Source: Candidatus Scalindua sp. (lineage in GTDB: Bacteria > Planctomycetota > Brocadiia > Brocadiales > Scalinduaceae). From it: DNA of 36,467 nt. Positions 12,126-35,312 of this stretch are shown in pieces. The notes beneath the pieces were generated by a model. It was not told where the DNA came from and ran no database searches. It saw nothing but the letters and a program-made list of their open reading frames with translations. The translations under genes and the position numbers were made by a program. Position 1 is the first letter of the stretch, and each line of letters begins with the position of its first letter. Location: contig JAIQZU010000057.1 of NCBI GenBank assembly GCA_021776915.1, forward strand, positions 1-36,467, written 5' to 3'.

Positions 12126-12497
12126 ATGTCGGAAAAACGACAGCGCAAAATTCGGGTTACTATCCGCCTCAATGAGGCCGAAGCAACCGAATTAAATAAC
12201 CGGGCCGAAAACCAAAGTCTTACTTTGGCCGGTTATTTTCGCTCTGCCGTTTTAAACACTCCTCCCCCGCCCCAATCCCGCCGACCACCCGTTGACAAGG
12301 AAATCCTTGGTCAACTGCTCGGCAAGATTGGCCGCATTGGCAACAACATTAACCAGCTTGCGCGGGTTGCCAATGCCGGATCATGGCCAGATAGCCAGCA
12401 GCTTAATTCGGCGTGTGACGATATCCAGGAGATACGTCACACCCTCATGCTGGCCCTCGGCACCGACCCGAAAATAGAGCCTCGGTCTGGCCCATGA
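12126..12497 (+). CDS. mobC: MobC-like mobilization accessory protein
   Basis: A 123-residue protein with an N-terminal ribbon-helix-helix-like segment (RKIRVTIRLNEAEATEL) and the MobC signature GKIGRIGNNINQLARVAN at about residues 67-84. MobC proteins bind oriT and help the relaxase open the nick site. The start is set at ATG 12126 because AAGAAGGA lies just upstream; an in-frame TTG at 12105 is less likely. The stop overlaps the relaxase ATG by 4 bases (ATGA), so the two are translationally coupled. Confidence 0.85.
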   Translation: MSEKRQRKIRVTIRLNEAEATELNNRAENQSLTLAGYFRSAVLNTPPPPQSRRPPVDKEILGQLLGKIGRIGNNINQLARVANAGSWPDSQQLNSACDDIQEIRHTLMLALGTDPKIEPRSGP

Positions 12498-13867
12498 TCC
12501 TGAAAGGCTCTCAACGGGGAGGTGGCCGCGCTCTCGCCCGCCACCTTCTCAACACGAAACACAATGATCATGTTGAGGTCCACAACATCCGTGGACTAGC
12601 CGTTGAAACCCTTGGGGCTGCTTTTTTGGAGATCGAGGCCGTCTCCAAAGGCACACGCGCTACGCAGCCCTTTTTTGCCGTTGCCTTCAACCCGCCTGAA
12701 ACCGCAAATATCTCTATCGAGGAATTTGAGGCAGCCTTTGCCGCCGTGGAGCAGAAGCTTGGTCTACAAGACCAACCTTGCGCGTTTGTTTTTCATGAAA
12801 AGGAAGGCCGCCGTCATGCCCATGCCGTCTGGTCCCGGATTGATGTGGATCAAATGAAAGCCATCCCGATGAATCATTTCAAAATGAAGCTTCAGGATGT
12901 CAGCCGGGACCTTTTCATCAAGCTGGGGCTTGAAATGCCAAAAGGCCTGAAAAACAAAAAAGACCGCGATCCGCTCAATTATGATCTTCCTGTATGGAAT
13001 CAGGCCAAGCGCCTGAAGGAAGATCCCCGTGACCTCAAAGAGGTCATTCAGAACGCCCTTAATTCCTCGGACGGACTTAAAGGCTTCCAGAACGCATTGG
13101 AAGCACAAGGAATGCTACTTGCCAGGGGAGATAAAAAACCCTTTGTCATCATCCACCACACAGGCGAACTCCTCTCAATGAAGAGTTATTCGGGTCTTAG
13201 AAAAAAGGAGCTTTTAGCCCGGCTTGGTTCCCCGGACAAGCTTCCTTCCGTGGAGCGGGCCAAAATAACCATGCAGGCCCGGATGACAGCGAAGGTGAAA
13301 CAAACCCTTCTCACCATCCGGAAAAAGCAAAGACAAGCCTTAAAACCATTAAACACCACCCGCAATGAAATGAAGGTCCGCCATGGCGAAGTCAGAACCA
13401 CCCTAAAACAGGCCCAGGATAAACGATGGAGCCAGGAGGAATTGCAACGAGCCAAACGCCTTCGCAAGGGCCTTATGGGCCTTTGGGATCGCATGACCGG
13501 GAAAAGAGGTAAAGTTTCCCGCCAGAATAAACAGGAGGCTGAGGAAGCCTTAAAACGCGATAAAAAGCAAAAACAAGACCTCATCAACAAACAAATGAAG
13601 GAAAGACGGGTCTTACAGAAGGAATTTAAAAAGCTCTACAAAAACCACAGACAAGAAATTACCCGCTTCCGCTATGATATGGGCTTCCTCATAAAAATGC
13701 AGAAAGCCTCTGAAAGAGCCGAAGGCCGTACCGATCAAATCAAGTTGAAAGACCATTGGAAGGAAAAACCTGATAAAGATCGGGAACCAAAAAAAGATAA
13801 GGGACAAGGCCGCGAACGGACAAGGGAAAGACCCAGAGGCCCCGGACGGGGACCAGGAAGGGGCTAA
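12494..13867 (+). CDS. mobA: Relaxase / mobilization nuclease
   Basis: A 457-residue relaxase, which nicks oriT and pilots the strand in transfer. The histidine triad is visible: H101 in FVFHEKEGRR, then H108 and H110 in RRHAHAVW. The N-terminus MILKGSQRGG and the HFKMKL and KGLKNKKDRDP blocks fit the relaxase family common in Rhodobacterales/Rhizobiales plasmids. The first 30 residues hold no Tyr; the NDHVEVH segment offers His26 as a possible nucleophile, as described for MobM of pMV158. The C-terminal 200 residues are a Lys/Arg-rich coiled coil ending in a Gly/Arg/Pro tail. Second gene of mobCA. Confidence 0.9.
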   Translation: MILKGSQRGGGRALARHLLNTKHNDHVEVHNIRGLAVETLGAAFLEIEAVSKGTRATQPFFAVAFNPPETANISIEEFEAAFAAVEQKLGLQDQPCAFVFHEKEGRRHAHAVWSRIDVDQMKAIPMNHFKMKLQDVSRDLFIKLGLEMPKGLKNKKDRDPLNYDLPVWNQAKRLKEDPRDLKEVIQNALNSSDGLKGFQNALEAQGMLLARGDKKPFVIIHHTGELLSMKSYSGLRKKELLARLGSPDKLPSVERAKITMQARMTAKVKQTLLTIRKKQRQALKPLNTTRNEMKVRHGEVRTTLKQAQDKRWSQEELQRAKRLRKGLMGLWDRMTGKRGKVSRQNKQEAEEALKRDKKQKQDLINKQMKERRVLQKEFKKLYKNHRQEITRFRYDMGFLIKMQKASERAEGRTDQIKLKDHWKEKPDKDREPKKDKGQGRERTRERPRGPGRGPGRG

Positions 13868-28406: not shown

Positions 28407-28428
28407 CATTCTGTTGTATGTCAGAATG
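28407..28428. promoter_or_regulatory. Operator dyad of restriction-modification operon
   Basis: Perfect arms CATTCTG (28407-28413) and CAGAATG (28422-28428) with an 8-base spacer, 25 bases before the GTG start of the methyltransferase. C5-methyltransferases with an N-terminal HTH (M.SsoII, M.EcoRII) repress their own promoters through such dyads. Confidence 0.6.
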
Positions 28429-28453
28429 TCAAAAATATTCCCAGGAGGGCAGG

Positions 28454-29749
28454 GTGGCAAAAAGAAAAGATCGTAACGAGTTTTCCAAACTTATTGAAAA
28501 AACAGGTCTTTCAAAAGAAGAAATTGCTGAACGCTCAGGGTACAATGTAAGAACAATATATCGCTGGGAAGCCGGTGAAACCTCACCCAGAAAGCCTTTT
28601 CTTGAATGGCTCCGCAAGCAAGCCGAACAAAATGGTGGTATTCAGAGACTGTCTCCACCAGGTTTTACCTTTATCGATCTTTTTGCAGGAATAGGTGGTT
28701 TACGAACCGGTTTTGAGCGGATTGGTGGAAAATGTATTTTTACAAGTGAATGGGACCTGGCATGCCGCAAGACCTATCAGGCTAATTTTCCCTGCGATCA
28801 TCCCGTGGAAGGGGATATTACTGTTATACCGGAAGAAAATATTCCCGCGCATGATGTCCTTGTTGCAGGTTTTCCCTGCCAGCCATTTTCTATAGCAGGA
28901 GTATCCAAAAAAAATGCCCTTGGAAGACCCCACGGCTTTTTATGTGAAGCTCAGGGCACATTGTTTTTTGATGTGGCCAGAATTATTGCTCACCACAATC
29001 CATCGGCGTTTCTCCTGGAAAATGTCAAGAACCTGCTCAACCATGACAAGGGCAACACCTTCCGCGTAATCCGCAAAACTCTTGAAAAGGATCTTGGTTA
29101 TCATATCGACTGGCGCGTGATTAACGCTAAAGGTTTTGTTCCACAAAACCGGGAAAGGATATTTATTGCCGGTTTTCGCCGGGATACAGGGTTTGATTTT
29201 GGAAAACTGGTGCTTCCTCAAGAAGCCGAGTGGCCCAAAATGTCAGCCATCCTTCATTCGGAAGACGGTTCCGAAACAGAAGAAGCTCCCTACACTGTTG
29301 GTACAAAAGCAAGGGTTAATCCAAAATATACGCTTTCGGACAAACTCTGGACCTACCTTCAAGACTACGCCAGAAAGCACAAGGCAAAAGGGAATGGTTT
29401 TGGCTATGGCCTTGTTGGCCGGAACGATGTAGCAAGAACCCTGTCTGCCAGATACTATAAGGATGGCTCCGAAATTCTGATTAAACAGCGGGGTAGAAGG
29501 CCCCGCCGCCTTACACCTAGGGAATGCGCACGCCTTATGGGTTTTGACAAGCCTGGAATGTCATCTTTTCAGATACCGGTGTCAGATACCCAAGCCTACA
29601 AACAATTTGGAAATGCCGTTGTTGTTCCCGTTCTGGAAACCGTTGCCAATCTCATTCAACCCCATATCTATAATGTTATGCACCAGGATTCCCGCCAGCA
29701 AAATCTTTTCAATGGAAAAGAAGTAGAATTGCTTTCCGGCCATGGTTGA
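28454..29749 (+). CDS. DNA (cytosine-5-)-methyltransferase, Dcm/EcoRII type with N-terminal HTH
   Basis: A 431-residue enzyme that methylates cytosine; by similarity to Dcm and M.EcoRII the site is probably CCWGG. Start: GTG 28454 with AGGAGG 5 bases upstream; ATG 28418 is also open but lies in the operator. Residues about 8-54 are an XRE-type HTH (KTGLSKEEIAERSGYNVRTI). Motif I is FIDLFAGIGG, motif IV GFPCQPFS with catalytic Cys142, motif VI ENV (Glu189), motif VIII QNRERI, motif X QFGNAV. The GRPHGFLCEAQGTLFFDVAR and RRPRRLTPRECARLMGF segments are characteristic of the EcoRII group. Overlaps vsr by 8 bases. Confidence 0.93.
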   Translation: MAKRKDRNEFSKLIEKTGLSKEEIAERSGYNVRTIYRWEAGETSPRKPFLEWLRKQAEQNGGIQRLSPPGFTFIDLFAGIGGLRTGFERIGGKCIFTSEWDLACRKTYQANFPCDHPVEGDITVIPEENIPAHDVLVAGFPCQPFSIAGVSKKNALGRPHGFLCEAQGTLFFDVARIIAHHNPSAFLLENVKNLLNHDKGNTFRVIRKTLEKDLGYHIDWRVINAKGFVPQNRERIFIAGFRRDTGFDFGKLVLPQEAEWPKMSAILHSEDGSETEEAPYTVGTKARVNPKYTLSDKLWTYLQDYARKHKAKGNGFGYGLVGRNDVARTLSARYYKDGSEILIKQRGRRPRRLTPRECARLMGFDKPGMSSFQIPVSDTQAYKQFGNAVVVPVLETVANLIQPHIYNVMHQDSRQQNLFNGKEVELLSGHG

Positions 29750-30212
29750 TATTGTTTCTCCCGAAACCCGTAGCCGGATGATGGCAGGTATCCGTGCCAA
29801 GGATACAAAACCGGAATTGATAATTCGCAAGACATTACATGCTCATGGTTTCAGGTATCGCTTGCATGATAAAAATCTTCCGGGAAAGCCAGACCTTTCC
29901 TTTCCACGCTACAGGGCCGTAATCATGGTACATGGTTGTTTCTGGCACGGGCACAACTGCCACCTGTTCAAATGGCCCTCATCAAGAGAAGAATTCTGGC
30001 GAAAAAAAATTAAAAGAAACCGTGAAAAAGATTCCGAAACCCTTGTTACTCTCCATGATACAGGATGGCGTGTCATGACAATCTGGGAATGCGCCCTGAA
30101 AGGCCGAACCCGCCTTCCCCTTGATAAAATTACCCAGGACATGTCCACCTGGTTGCAATCGGATCAAACAAGTCTGGAAATCATGGGAAACAAAAGAAAG
30201 ATCGCCGAATGA
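29742..30212 (+). CDS. vsr: Very short patch repair endonuclease
   Basis: A 156-residue Vsr endonuclease, which nicks T:G mismatches arising when methylated cytosine is deaminated at Dcm sites. Visible features are SRMMAGIRAKDTKPELIIRK, GKPDLSFPRYRAVIMVHGCF (with the metal-binding Asp in PDL) and CFWHGHNC. It overlaps the methyltransferase gene by 8 bases and the endonuclease gene by 4, so all three are translated as one operon. This matches the dcm-vsr order in E. coli, here with the endonuclease added. Confidence 0.93.
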   Translation: MVDIVSPETRSRMMAGIRAKDTKPELIIRKTLHAHGFRYRLHDKNLPGKPDLSFPRYRAVIMVHGCFWHGHNCHLFKWPSSREEFWRKKIKRNREKDSETLVTLHDTGWRVMTIWECALKGRTRLPLDKITQDMSTWLQSDQTSLEIMGNKRKIAE

Positions 30213-31432
30213 AAGAAGGTTTTCTCTCAAATTATTTTGAAGGTGTTTCGGCCAAGCGGCTTAGCGCGGTTGAAGCTGACCCTGGCAGGTCAAACCAGCA
30301 CGAGTTTAACGGTGTAAAAAACCTGAAAAAACTTTTTGGACAGGGCAGACTAACGGATTTTCCGGCCCGCTTTCTGTGGCTCGGGGAAGAGAACGAGGGC
30401 CTGTCTGAAGATTCCTTGGTAACCTGGTATGATTCAAGGGAAAAACACCCGACACGGACGGAACACCGACTTTATTTTAAAACTAATCCTGTCATGGAAA
30501 TGGCCCGTGAGGGCGATCTCCTTGTAGTTGCCAGAAGACCTGGAAATGAATTGATGATTATTGTGGCCAGCAAAAACACAACTGTTGAAAACCAGTTGCT
30601 CTGGCTTTTTGGCGTACCGGTTCAGATTGGAACAGGCTTTGAATTTCTGGATATTGAAGATAAAAAAAATATGGAGGTCGATTTTGCGGCCCGGTTTATT
30701 CTGGAAGAACTCGGCATCGAAATCGAAGACCCGGAGTCTTCCCGGTTTGACGCATTGCTGGAACCGTTTCAGGGCAAGTTTCCCAAAACTATGGAATTTT
30801 CTGCTTTCGCCAGAGAAACACTCCCTGATGTTACTCCCCACGATGGACCAGACGTAGCTTTGATAGCCTGGATAGACCGTGAAGAAAAATTGTTCAGACG
30901 GCTGGAACGCTATATAGTTTCAGAACGTTTGAAGCAGGGTTTTATCGAGCCTGATGGCGCAGATGTTGACGGCTTTATCAGTTTTTCTCTGAGTGTTCAG
31001 AACCGCCGGAAGTCAAGGGCGGGTTATGCGCTTGAAAATCATATTGAAGAAATTTTTCGTTCCCTGTCCATTCGCTATGACAGGGAGGCTGTAACGGAAA
31101 ATAATGCCAAACCGGATTTTCTTTTTCCAGGAAAAAATGAATATCATGACGGGGCGTTCCCGGATATTAACCTGAACATGCTCGGAGTAAAGTCTTCCTG
31201 CAAAGACAGGTGGCGGCAGGTTCTTTCCGAAGCGAACCGGATACCGGACAAACATCTTTTCACACTGGAACCCGGAATCAGTGAAAACCAGACCAATGAA
31301 ATGGTTGCCCAGAGGCTTCAACTGGTCCTTCCCAAAAGCCTGCATTCAACCTACCGGCCTGCACAGCAAGAATGGCTTATGGATCTGAATGGATTTATTG
31401 ATCTTGTCAGGGAACGTCAGGAAAGTAATTAA
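30209..31432 (+). CDS. EcoRII-like restriction endonuclease
   Basis: A 407-residue type IIE-like enzyme. The C-terminal half matches the EcoRII catalytic domain: SVQNRRKSRAGYALENHIEE (about 262-281), KPDFLFPGKNEYHD (301-314, Asp303), LGVKSSCKDRWRQVL (Lys328, Lys332, Arg334) and a late LFTLEPGIS. The N-terminal half (about 1-175) is a different, effector-type domain rather than a close EcoRII-N match. Expected to cut unmethylated CCWGG and usually to need two sites. Starts with a 4-base overlap with vsr (ATGA). Appears intact, since the catalytic residues are all present. Confidence 0.88.
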   Translation: MKEGFLSNYFEGVSAKRLSAVEADPGRSNQHEFNGVKNLKKLFGQGRLTDFPARFLWLGEENEGLSEDSLVTWYDSREKHPTRTEHRLYFKTNPVMEMAREGDLLVVARRPGNELMIIVASKNTTVENQLLWLFGVPVQIGTGFEFLDIEDKKNMEVDFAARFILEELGIEIEDPESSRFDALLEPFQGKFPKTMEFSAFARETLPDVTPHDGPDVALIAWIDREEKLFRRLERYIVSERLKQGFIEPDGADVDGFISFSLSVQNRRKSRAGYALENHIEEIFRSLSIRYDREAVTENNAKPDFLFPGKNEYHDGAFPDINLNMLGVKSSCKDRWRQVLSEANRIPDKHLFTLEPGISENQTNEMVAQRLQLVLPKSLHSTYRPAQQEWLMDLNGFIDLVRERQESN

Positions 31433-31879: not shown

Positions 31880-32023
31880 ATAAATCCCTTTCAAATAATA
31901 TGATTTGTCTCAATCTAAATAAGATTTCACATCTTTAAAATCAAGCATTCCCCCCAATTTTTATGTTTCATGTCCCGATCATTTTCACTCCTTTACTGGT
32001 TTCCCTCAATATTCATGCTTTGT

Positions 32024-32094
32024 AGCCGGGCGCGCCTTCGGTTCAAGGTCCGCTGCGCTCTCCACCTTGACCCGTTCAGCTTTACCACCCGGCT
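32024..32094 (+). ncRNA. Structured leader, copy A
   Basis: Outer stem AGCCGGG (32024-32030) with CCCGGCT (32088-32094); inner stem GGTTCAAGGT (32040-32049) with ACCTTGACC (32064-32072), a T bulged; then CCGTTCAGCT. It lies 46 bases before the DNA methylase ATG. Its sequence family matches copy B at 34835-34939, with different bases but the same pairing in the inner stem. Confidence 0.6.
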
Positions 32095-32140
32095 TATTCC
32101 TCCGCATGTTGAGAAAAACCTAACAGCAAAGGAGATACCA

Positions 32141-32806
32141 ATGTTTACTCATAACCAAATCATTCAAGGTGATTGCATCGAAGTCATGAAATCACTACCA
32201 GATAATACCGTTGACCTTGTAGTTACTGATCCACCATATTTGGTCAACTATAAAGACAGAAGTGGCCGCACCATCAAAAATGATAATTCCCCAGATACAG
32301 TCTTGGATAGTTTTCAGGAAATCTACAGGCTTTTAAAGCCTGACACCTTTTGCATCTCATTTTACGGATGGAACACCGTTGATATCTTTTTCAAAGCTTG
32401 GAAGGATGCCGGTTTCAAGCCTGTAGGCCATATAACCTGGTCTAAAAATTATTCCTCTCACATCGGCTTTCTTAAAGCCCACCATGAACAAGCCTACCTC
32501 TTGGCTAAAGGCAGACCACAACAACCGTCTAATCCTATTCCAGATGTTCAACCTTGGGAGTACAGTGGCAATAAAAACCACCCTACTGAAAAAGCCGTTA
32601 CCATCCTTAAACCTCTTGTGAAATCATTTTCAAAACCAGGAGATCTTGTTCTCGATCCATTTTCCGGTTCGGGTAGTACCTCAGTCGCTGCCAAGTTTAC
32701 AGGCCGCAATTATCTTGGCATTGAGCTTGAGCAAAAATATTGCGATAAAGCTCGTACTCGTTTAGAAGGAGCAGGCCGGTATATGGAATTACTCAAAGCC
32801 GCCTGA
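32141..32806 (+). CDS. DNA adenine/cytosine-N4 methyltransferase, beta class order
   Basis: A 221-residue methyltransferase. The catalytic motif IV is DPPY (30-33) and the AdoMet-binding motif I DPFSGSGST (172-180) is near the C-terminus, the order of the beta class (as in CcrM). ATG 32141 follows AAGGAG at 7 bases; an in-frame extension upstream to 31970 covers the structured leader and is rejected. No restriction partner lies next to it, so it is an orphan methylase, common on alphaproteobacterial plasmids. The recognition site is unknown. Confidence 0.9.
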   Translation: MFTHNQIIQGDCIEVMKSLPDNTVDLVVTDPPYLVNYKDRSGRTIKNDNSPDTVLDSFQEIYRLLKPDTFCISFYGWNTVDIFFKAWKDAGFKPVGHITWSKNYSSHIGFLKAHHEQAYLLAKGRPQQPSNPIPDVQPWEYSGNKNHPTEKAVTILKPLVKSFSKPGDLVLDPFSGSGSTSVAAKFTGRNYLGIELEQKYCDKARTRLEGAGRYMELLKAA

Positions 32807-32828
32807 TCCCATAAAAATATAGAACCTG

Positions 32829-32910
32829 GGCCACCTTCAAACGCTGTAACGTGCACTTCCCGAAAAAACAGCTTGACCGGGTGATTACCGTATTGCAAAA
32901 ACAACAGTAA
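32829..32910 (+). pseudogene. Possible gene remnant
   Basis: A short frame ending in CNVHFPKKQLDRVITVLQ and a stop reads like the C-terminus of a protein, but no start or upstream homologous part is present after the methylase gene. Weak evidence. Confidence 0.25.
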
Positions 32911-32922
32911 AGGAGAAAAGCA

Positions 32923-33219
32923 ATGTTAAAACCTGAACCAATGCAACTCGCACAGATCATTAATAACAAAATTCGTGATCTATACGAAGACGGCGAATTA
33001 TCAGATATCGAGCAGGACGAAGCTTTTGGCTATACATGTGAAGCCGTTTTTGGTTTTAGCCCAAATGAAGTTGAAGGCATCCATACCCACAAGACAGGCA
33101 TAGGTGATGGTGTTTGGTTTCGCTTAAAAGATGGCCGTGTCATTAGTGGCTTCCGTGAGGAAAGCGATCCAAACCCAAACCTTTACGACGCGGTATCCAC
33201 TCAAACAATTCTGAAATAG
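32923..33219 (+). CDS. Small acidic hypothetical protein
   Basis: A 98-residue acidic protein; AAGGAG precedes ATG 32923 by 7-8 bases. It contains AQIINNKIRDLYEDGELSD, FGYTCEAVFGFSPNEVEGIH and a basic-poor C-terminus. I do not recognise a family. It follows the methylase in the same direction and may be co-transcribed with it. Confidence 0.6.
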   Translation: MLKPEPMQLAQIINNKIRDLYEDGELSDIEQDEAFGYTCEAVFGFSPNEVEGIHTHKTGIGDGVWFRLKDGRVISGFREESDPNPNLYDAVSTQTILK

Positions 33220-33299
33220 TGCTCAAATAATTCCGAACTTAATAGGGAATAAAAACAGTAATGTAGACTCATTTAAAAATTTTCTTTAGAATAGAAGTT

Positions 33300-33551
33300 A
33301 TGAGCAACGAAATCGAAGATATTGTTATTCCTATCCTTCAAAACATCCAGGGTGATTTGGCTGTGGTGAAAACCGATATTGGGGTATTGAAGGAAAATAC
33401 CGGGAAAATCGACCTCCGTTTAAAGGCGGTCGAATCTCATATGTCCGGTTTTATGTCCACGTCAAAATATTTTGAAGCGGAAATGGATGAATTGCGGGGT
33501 CGGGTCGAAGATTTGGCAAAAGACCATGACCCTGATAACCCGCCAACCTAG
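33300..33551 (+). CDS. Small coiled-coil protein
   Basis: An 83-residue protein that is one long coiled coil (ILQNIQGDLAVVKTDIGVLK, LDLR-type heptads) with an FMSTSKYFEAEMDE break and a Pro-rich end. It resembles a small alphaproteobacterial family with 'LQRIQDDLAxVKxD' starts, function unknown. No strong ribosome site. Confidence 0.6.
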   Translation: MSNEIEDIVIPILQNIQGDLAVVKTDIGVLKENTGKIDLRLKAVESHMSGFMSTSKYFEAEMDELRGRVEDLAKDHDPDNPPT

Positions 33552-33587
33552 ATTGCCCCTCTTCCCGTTTTAATTTCCGCTTTTAGC

Positions 33588-33600
33588 AAAAGCCACAATA
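33588..33600 (+). repeat. Word AAAAGCCACAATA, copy 1
   Basis: Forms a perfect 13-base inverted repeat with 33645-33657, the latter abutting the recombinase ATG. Further copies of the 12-base core are at 33672-33683 (inside the recombinase gene), 25592-25603 and 7932-7943. A 15-base version (33586-33600) recurs at 7930-7944. Confidence 0.65.
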
Positions 33601-33644
33601 GCAAGACATTGAAAATAAAGGTTTTTTCGGCTTTACTTTTATGT

Positions 33645-33657
33645 TATTGTGGCTTTT
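33645..33657 (-). repeat. Word AAAAGCCACAATA, inverted copy at recombinase start
   Basis: Read on the minus strand it is identical to 33588-33600 and ends at the base before ATG 33658, so a protein bound here would block translation or transcription start. Likely an autoregulatory or recombinase-binding site. Confidence 0.6.
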
Positions 33658-34377
33658 ATGAAGGATAAAGGAAAAGCCACAATTGAAAATGAACCCTGGA
33701 ACAAGGGAAAAGCCGTCGGGCAAATGACCCCGTTTAACCCGGATCAGGCCGATCTCATCCGCACGATATTAAAATCCGATCATGCAACTTTCACCGAAGA
33801 AGCCGCAAACCACGCGGCAAATAATAAATCATCAAAATCTAAAACCGCATCCCGAAAAGCCCTTGGTGCGCTCCGCGACCTCGCCATGTTCAATACCGGA
33901 ATTGATACCATGCTCCGGGCCTCTGATCTTTTAAAGCTCCGCGTCATCGACGTGGCCGATCATGAAGGCAACATCATAGAAGAATTTTCCATCCGGCAGA
34001 AAAAAACCAAAAATCCACAAGTTGTTGCGCTTTCTCACAACAGCCGGGAAAGTTTGAAAGCCTGGATCAGTGCCACCGGAAAATCTTCAGAGGATTTTCT
34101 GTTCACCAGTATAGGCAACCGCAACAACGGCGGGCCTCTATCTCGCAACCAGTACGCCAATCTGGTTAAGAAATGGGCCAGCCATGCCCGCCTCGATCCC
34201 AAGCGCCACAGCACCCACTCCATGCGCCGGTCCAAATCTGCTGCCGTCTACGAGAAAACTCACAACTTACGCGCCTGCCAGCATCTTCTCGGCCATAAGA
34301 GCATTGCCAGCACCGCTTCCTATCTGGCCGTAGACCAACGTGAAGCCCTCGACCTCGCCAAAAAGATAAAAATTTAA
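33658..34377 (+). CDS. Compact tyrosine recombinase
   Basis: A 239-residue site-specific recombinase/integrase. The catalytic residues are all visible: Arg87 in MLRASDLLKL, Lys116 or Lys118 in RQKKTKNP, His187 and Arg190 in HSMRR, His213 in LLGHKS and Tyr222 in SYLAVD. The N-terminal core-binding domain is short (about 70 residues) compared with XerC/D or phage integrases. ATG 33658 is chosen; an in-frame GTG lies at 33649. No attachment site is obvious next to it; the AAAAGCCACAAT repeats and the half-site cluster at 1-165 are candidate targets. Confidence 0.88.
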   Translation: MKDKGKATIENEPWNKGKAVGQMTPFNPDQADLIRTILKSDHATFTEEAANHAANNKSSKSKTASRKALGALRDLAMFNTGIDTMLRASDLLKLRVIDVADHEGNIIEEFSIRQKKTKNPQVVALSHNSRESLKAWISATGKSSEDFLFTSIGNRNNGGPLSRNQYANLVKKWASHARLDPKRHSTHSMRRSKSAAVYEKTHNLRACQHLLGHKSIASTASYLAVDQREALDLAKKIKI

Positions 34378-34381
34378 AACT

Positions 34382-34690
34382 TTAATTGTCCATTGTGGTA
34401 ATCAAAACGGCCCGATATGCAACGCCAGCCTTATCAATTCGTTCAACAAAACTGTCCGCAGCAATTTTCCTTCCTATATGGTCCTCCAATTCATGTAGGT
34501 TTTGTTTATTTAATTCAGAACCCATGTTATCTTCCCACGCTTCTTCTGAAATATGAATGATCAGCTTTTTCCCGCCAACAGTAACCTTAAATCTTAATTC
34601 CGAGTTCGTGAAATCATCTTCTATCTTTTCAAATATCATTTGCAATATTTCCTTCTCTTGCTTTGTAACCTCTACTGAAAACAAGTCCAA
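34382..34690 (-). CDS. Small hypothetical protein
   Basis: Up to 102 residues from a TTG at 34690; ATG 34639 (85 residues) with GAAGGAAA upstream is an alternative start that I find about equally likely. It contains KKLIIHISEEAWED and ELEDHIGRKIAADSFVERID, a pattern faintly like DUF1488, but this is not secure. It ends four bases after the recombinase stop, convergent with it. Confidence 0.5.
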   Translation of the reverse strand: MDLFSVEVTKQEKEILQMIFEKIEDDFTNSELRFKVTVGGKKLIIHISEEAWEDNMGSELNKQNLHELEDHIGRKIAADSFVERIDKAGVAYRAVLITTMDN

Positions 34691-34834
34691 CCTACAAGTC
34701 AGCTAAGGGACCGTCAAGTTTTGGAAAACGGCCTTGTACCGTCCCTCTGATGCCTATTCATCCGTTCTTGCTTGCGTTTGGTTGTAACCCTCATTCCCAT
34801 CACTTTTCCGGTTTTCTTAAATTTAATGCCTCAT

Positions 34835-34939
34835 AGCCGTGCGCGCCTCCGCGTCAATGGGCTGGCCCGCTCCATTCGCCTGCCGGCAGGACGGCAGGCT
34901 CCCGTGTGGCCCATGACCCGTTCAGCTCATGCACCCGGC
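34835..34939 (+). ncRNA. Structured leader, copy B
   Basis: AGCCGTG at 34835 and CACCCGGC at 34932-34939 correspond to the outer stem of copy A. The inner stem is GTCAATGGGC (34853-34862) with GCCCATGAC (34909-34917), one A bulged, and an added hairpin GCCTGCCG/CGGCAGGC (34878-34885, 34892-34899). The GACCCGTTCAGCT segment is shared exactly with copy A. It ends 43 bases before the DUF3768 ATG. Confidence 0.6.
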
Positions 34940-34982: not shown

Positions 34983-35312
34983 ATGAACAACACAAAACGC
35001 ATTGCAGAATTAAATGATATTTGCCGGAAGGCCCTGGGTGTCGGTGGTCGTTTTTATCAAACGCAGGGAATTTCTTCCCTGCCTTTAGAGGACCAGTCGG
35101 CCATTCGTGAAAAGTTGGAACGTTTCAATGTTTTTACCGAAAACAATGATCCTCATGGTGAGCATGATTTTGGTTCTTTCGACCACAACGGTCAAAAAAT
35201 CTTCTGGAAGATCGACTACTACGCACCGGATATGGAGCATGGCAGCGAAGATCCCGCCGATCCGTCAAAGACGGTTCGCGTTCTTACCCTCATGCTGGCA
35301 GAGGAGTATTGA
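34983..35312 (+). CDS. DUF3768 plasmid protein
   Basis: A 109-residue protein of DUF3768, a small plasmid-associated family of unknown function. Typical parts are RIAELNDICRKALGVGGRFY, FTENNDPHGEHDFGSFDHNG, KIFWKIDYYAPDM and the ending TLMLAEEY. ATG 34983 follows AAGGAG with 7 bases; in-frame upstream starts run through the structured leader and are rejected. Followed 3 bases later by the next gene. Confidence 0.85.
   Translation: MNNTKRIAELNDICRKALGVGGRFYQTQGISSLPLEDQSAIREKLERFNVFTENNDPHGEHDFGSFDHNGQKIFWKIDYYAPDMEHGSEDPADPSKTVRVLTLMLAEEY

Follow-up and report, generated by a model that had tools for sequence, protein, structure and literature searches.

Two genes of the window (the whole stretch of 36,467 nucleotides analysed here), encoding an N6/N4 DNA methylase and a DUF3768 protein, are each preceded by an inverted repeat of similar sequence, which raises the question of what these two elements do and on which strand they act. 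A preliminary description had taken them for structured RNA leaders. The features concerned are as follows:

32025-32093, minus strand: element 1, a nested hairpin with outer arms 32086-32093 and 32025-32032 and inner arms 32064-32070 and 32043-32049
32052-32058, minus strand: apical mini-hairpin GC-GCA-GC (GNA triloop) of element 1, inside GGAGAGCGCAGCGG
32041-32046, minus strand: putative -35-like TTGAAC of element 1, in the 3' arm of the inner stem
32019-32024, minus strand: putative -10-like TACAAA of element 1, at the foot of the hairpin, spaced 16 nt from the -35-like box
34836-34939, minus strand: element 2 (type III), outer part as in element 1 and apex different, with inner arms 34909-34917 and 34853-34862
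34878-34899, minus strand: longer hairpin GCCTGCC...GGCAGGC of element 2, replacing the mini-hairpin
34852-34857, minus strand: putative -35-like TTGACG of element 2, in the stem
34830-34835, minus strand: putative -10-like TATGAG of element 2, at the foot of the hairpin, spaced 16 nt from the -35-like box
32141-32806, plus strand: N6/N4 DNA methylase gene downstream of element 1 (Pfam N6_N4_Mtase, 2e-35)
34983-35312, plus strand: DUF3768 gene downstream of element 2 (Pfam DUF3768, 1e-33)
12494-13867, plus strand: relaxase gene (Pfam Relaxase, 9e-13), the direction of which makes minus the inferred transferred strand

The sequence blocks that the preliminary description had reported as shared are all present, in the same order, in both elements: TAGCCG(G/T)GCGCGCCT at 32023-32037 and 34834-34848, GACCCGTTCAGCT at 32069-32081 and 34915-34927 (exact in both and with no other occurrence in the window), and ACCCGGC ending at 32093 and 34939, each time in elements 1 and 2, respectively. 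The alignment of the two elements scores 79.1, compared with 40.8±4.3 and a maximum of 65.4 for 2000 dinucleotide-preserving shuffles, and no place in the whole window matches element 1 better than element 2; the similarity is real. It was also rightly noted that the element is common to unrelated plasmid genes and that the inner stems differ in sequence and retain pairing in both copies. A bulge as a common feature did not hold up, element 1 having a 1x1 mismatch (T·C on the plus strand, G·A on the minus strand) and element 2 a single bulged base. Two copies by themselves would be weak evidence of covariation; this evidence is provided by the wider hairpin family. Elsewhere in the window, genes for a C5 methylase and an EcoRII-C-type restriction enzyme lie upstream of element 1 (28418-31432), and an ArdC N-terminal domain at the contig end (36300-36467) together with DUF3560 near the start (1085-1861) suggests a circular plasmid cut there. 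No copy of the hairpin family was found before the window's ArdC-domain or DUF3560 gene.

The family was reached by blastn with both elements and then with copies met along the way. Its core, in the sense of the window's minus strand, is a stem closing GGAGA(GCGNAGC)GN, which is present on other plasmids too; two subtypes lie one extra C apart, and the apex is longer in a third, that of element 2. Seven other copies, the window excluded, were used to build a model (R1), which detects element 1 at 32035-32078 on the minus strand (32.1 bits, E about 1e-6) as its top match across the window's whole genome; a further model (R2) was built with the window among its copies and so necessarily matches it. 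A search with a 20-base pattern gave 55 matching stretches in genome contigs (Holosporales, Spirochaetes, Opitutaceae, Microbacteriaceae, Gracilibacteria, Bacteroidales and others) and three in viral contigs; two further viral scans returned 22 stretches and 1 stretch, with stems only in the three already known and in one weak case. Element-2-like sequences are present on alphaproteobacterial plasmids, a 53-nt query of this type matching 44 plasmid records (11 with at least 80% of the query length covered), with a weak tail to the list. Generally, the non-Holosporales genomes examined carry one or two copies each; 385 genomes of the Methylorubrum class hold a single clear copy, which lies in the centre genome, and in the 75 genomes of the class to which the window's host belongs, nothing matched apart from the window and one weaker case (E 0.01). 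In E. coli genomes, the 34-nt consensus had no match. Matches in a phage collection fell, among those listed, in Vibrio phage endolysin-type genes and were judged chance coding matches, and a Streptomyces match (L005) was likewise set aside as chance.

Several records are peculiar in their arrangement. Types ii and III occur together on one plasmid (L003 3001-3450, NZ_CP033509, NZ_CP058352), and the window pairs types i and III. The 2953-bp plasmid p5 (L006) has a degenerate core copy and only RepA and MliC genes annotated. The 18,228-bp record of Thiothrix unzii pTunz4 (L149) holds the same gene order twice and may be a dimer, and the linear record of a Xanthobacter dioxanivorans plasmid (L153) contains relaxase, T4CP, methylase, RepA and ParA blocks twice.

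The preliminary description had asked for a search for covarying copies beyond the window, and such copies exist. Among 26 of them, 99.1% of cells are paired, five of the seven stem pairs show change on both sides, and none of 500 shuffles was as good, the inner four pairs being under-tested because the sample was partly picked by a pattern fixing AAGG/CCTT. This pattern bias was avoided for the loop by leaving its three bases free in Holosporales, where it reads GNA, with N variable, in 136 of 142 copies among the matches listed (one chance-like G098 match set aside; these are repeat copies and not independent). In about 81 copies of one Holosporales genome and in 7 of another, A-T replaces G-C as the first mini-hairpin pair. 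DNA mini-hairpins with a GNA loop and two or more G-C pairs are known to be extraordinarily stable (PMC4686876).

In both elements, either strand can pair, and folding is better for the minus strand under RNA and DNA parameters alike (four of four comparisons). Across 38 non-redundant copies, after correction for composition, the stem mismatches on the GNA strand are G·T rather than A·C (26 vs 8, p 0.003) and purine-purine rather than pyrimidine-pyrimidine (45 vs 12, p 0.0007). Mismatches, folding energies and the GNA mini-hairpin identify the window's minus strand as the one that folds.

On plasmids, this strand can be compared with the one that is transferred. The relaxase gene is by convention usually the last to be transferred and reads away from oriT (PMC11541004); hence, its direction gives the transferred strand, and the oriT side was inferred in this way in all plasmids compared. 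On 15 of 17 plasmids, folding strand and inferred transferred strand coincide (p 0.0023), with the plasmids and repeat copies not all independent. Eleven of these (plasmids or contigs) were assessed in retrospect; in nine the strands agree (the window, L148, L150, L151, L152, L153, L154, L010 and L081), and L015 and L155 (pRA2) have the opposite orientation. Six more were picked by the hairpin alone from the matches to the 53-nt query, and all six agree, the relaxase direction having been predicted before the relaxase was viewed and the prediction written down only afterwards; three Methylobacterium plasmids carry similar copies and so weigh less than three. On the Salipiger and Yersinia plasmids, the copy lies far from the inferred oriT and would enter late, outside the leading region.

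The same strand preference is seen in single-stranded DNA phages. Three Microviridae-type contigs or prophages, one encoding a Phage_F capsid protein (L040) and two a Microviridae-type replication protein (L041 and L051 (Devosia)), have the hairpin on the coding strand, these genes all lying on the strand that bears GGAGAGCGNAGCG. In Microviridae, the packaged strand is the coding strand, which places the hairpin on the virion strand in all three.

The position relative to genes is also directional. The next annotated gene lies in the predicted direction at 24 of 27 copies (p 5e-5, hand-tabulated), mostly at a distance of 40-220 nt; three annotated copies (L010, L150, L152) have no gene there. 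The genes concerned include methylases, DUF3768, antitoxins and small unknown genes, and ssb follows one copy (L055) and lies near another (L081). The GNA strand carries TTGAC or a similar sequence in its 3' arm and a -10-like hexamer at its foot; with such a stem -35-like box and foot -10-like box, a single DNA strand would supply both strands of the promoter, as it does in Frpo, a single-stranded promoter considered below. The pairs read TTGAAC-16-TACAAA in element 1, TTGACG-16-TATGAG in element 2, TTGAA(C/G)-15-TAAAAT in two phages and TTGAC-19 to 21-TATAAT in Holosporales, the spacing thus being 15-16 in the window elements and the gokushovirus-like copies versus 19-21 in Holosporales. Enrichment of -10-like boxes is confined to the predicted side (8/1000 outside Holosporales, 0/1000 within) and is supportive rather than a blind test, since the scoring weights and the 13-21 spacing range were set after examples had been seen. 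A good -10-like match is absent from many alphaproteobacterial copies. Two related Bacteroidales copies (two sequences) have nnnTTTG in this place, the motif that Bacteroidetes promoters carry.

Three Holosporales genomes (G077, G081, G101) contain 36, 48 and 86 dispersed intergenic copies, which have no clear gene orientation and fit no gene or strand rule; they look like an amplified repeat. Often a second hairpin around TATAAT then follows (e.g., L044, L047).

We favour, at a probability of about 0.58, the reading that the hairpin is a compact, sequence-unrelated counterpart of Frpo, namely a promoter and/or primer site on the transferred single strand that would serve the early expression of establishment genes. 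The transferred strand of the mobilizable plasmid (minus in the window) would fold each hairpin while single-stranded in the recipient, with the inner stem providing a duplex -35-like box, the foot an unpaired -10-like box and the very stable GNA mini-hairpin a cap. We infer that host RNA polymerase would bind there and copy the strand 5' of the hairpin into an early mRNA for the downstream establishment gene; a primer for second-strand synthesis might also be made, and conversion to duplex DNA would turn the promoter off. As the transcript would start at the foot, downstream of the hairpin, the latter would act as a promoter rather than a leader.

The original proposal, that the downstream mRNA begins with a structured 5' leader RNA, draws on the position before start codons and on the pairing of the plus strand as well, but mismatch types, energies and the GNA cap all favour the minus strand, which is absent from the mRNA, and Rfam matched no family at gathering score. 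Below that threshold, up to E 10, there were only weak, implausible miRNA- and snoRNA-type matches, taken as chance. A leader is, hence, highly improbable. Of the earlier proposal, the selected structure stands, with covarying copies elsewhere, while the RNA leader gives way to a fold of the opposite strand as single-stranded DNA; the suggested tie to entry into a new host is plausible. Equally little credence is given to a double-stranded operator, in which a plasmid repressor would recognise the palindrome: the inverted repeats that precede several genes on one plasmid would suit it, yet a duplex site leaves the strand asymmetry, the conserved triloop and the cross-phylum occurrence unaccounted for.

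Two further alternatives start from the hairpin as such. It may be a single-strand initiation site only, recruiting primase or a primosome for second-strand synthesis with no role in gene expression. The strand that folds, the strand that is transferred and the ssDNA phages all agree with this, and it accounts for the copies lacking a gene in the predicted direction and for the 2953-bp plasmid; however, neither the upstream-of-gene position of most annotated copies nor the one-sidedness of the -10-like boxes is predicted by it, and we consider it rather unlikely. A dispersed REP-like mobile hairpin, carried by plasmids without a role of its own, would explain the numerous Holosporales copies with their unclear orientation, but not the low copy number in most other genomes or the consistent direction relative to relaxase and genes; sharp repeat boundaries were not seen in the plasmid copies inspected, unsystematically, and this explanation appears improbable. 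Beyond the transferred-strand promoter favoured here, it is conceivable, at somewhat less than even odds, that one compact ssDNA hairpin, read by conserved host machinery, provides conjugative plasmids and ssDNA phages of several phyla with a start signal.

Among known systems, Frpo of plasmid F, reportedly described by Masai and Arai in 1997, is the closest in layout. In F and its relatives, Frpo1/Frpo2 (ssi) are transferred-strand hairpins upstream of leading genes such as ssb (PMC9849209; PMC11541004). There, the two arms combine into -35 and -10 boxes, as the -35-like and -10-like boxes of the present hairpin may do, and the direction relative to oriT would be the same in both systems; in contrast, the F region folds as a roughly 330-nt structure without the GNA core, while the present hairpin measures about 70-105 nt and occurs in several phyla. 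No sequence similarity to Frpo was found in F 48.0-67.5 kb, where R2 finds nothing and blastn gives chance-level matches only. Searches for Frpo have relied mostly on resemblance to five established examples and close derivatives of these (PMC11541004). With a short hairpin of distinctive signature, early-expressed plasmid genes, many of them of unknown function, could be identified in further phyla, and single-stranded transcription could be tested beyond enterobacteria. Likened by description, three other systems share individual traits with the hairpin. The complementary-strand origins of Microviridae (G4, phiX174) are intergenic hairpins on the virion strand, as here. In IncN plasmids, too, several leading-region genes are preceded by a common control sequence, the CUP elements of the ArdK regulon, which work as double-stranded promoters under a repressor. 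The promoters of the phage N4 virion RNA polymerase are, as here, small ssDNA hairpins with a stable short loop, their reader being the phage polymerase.
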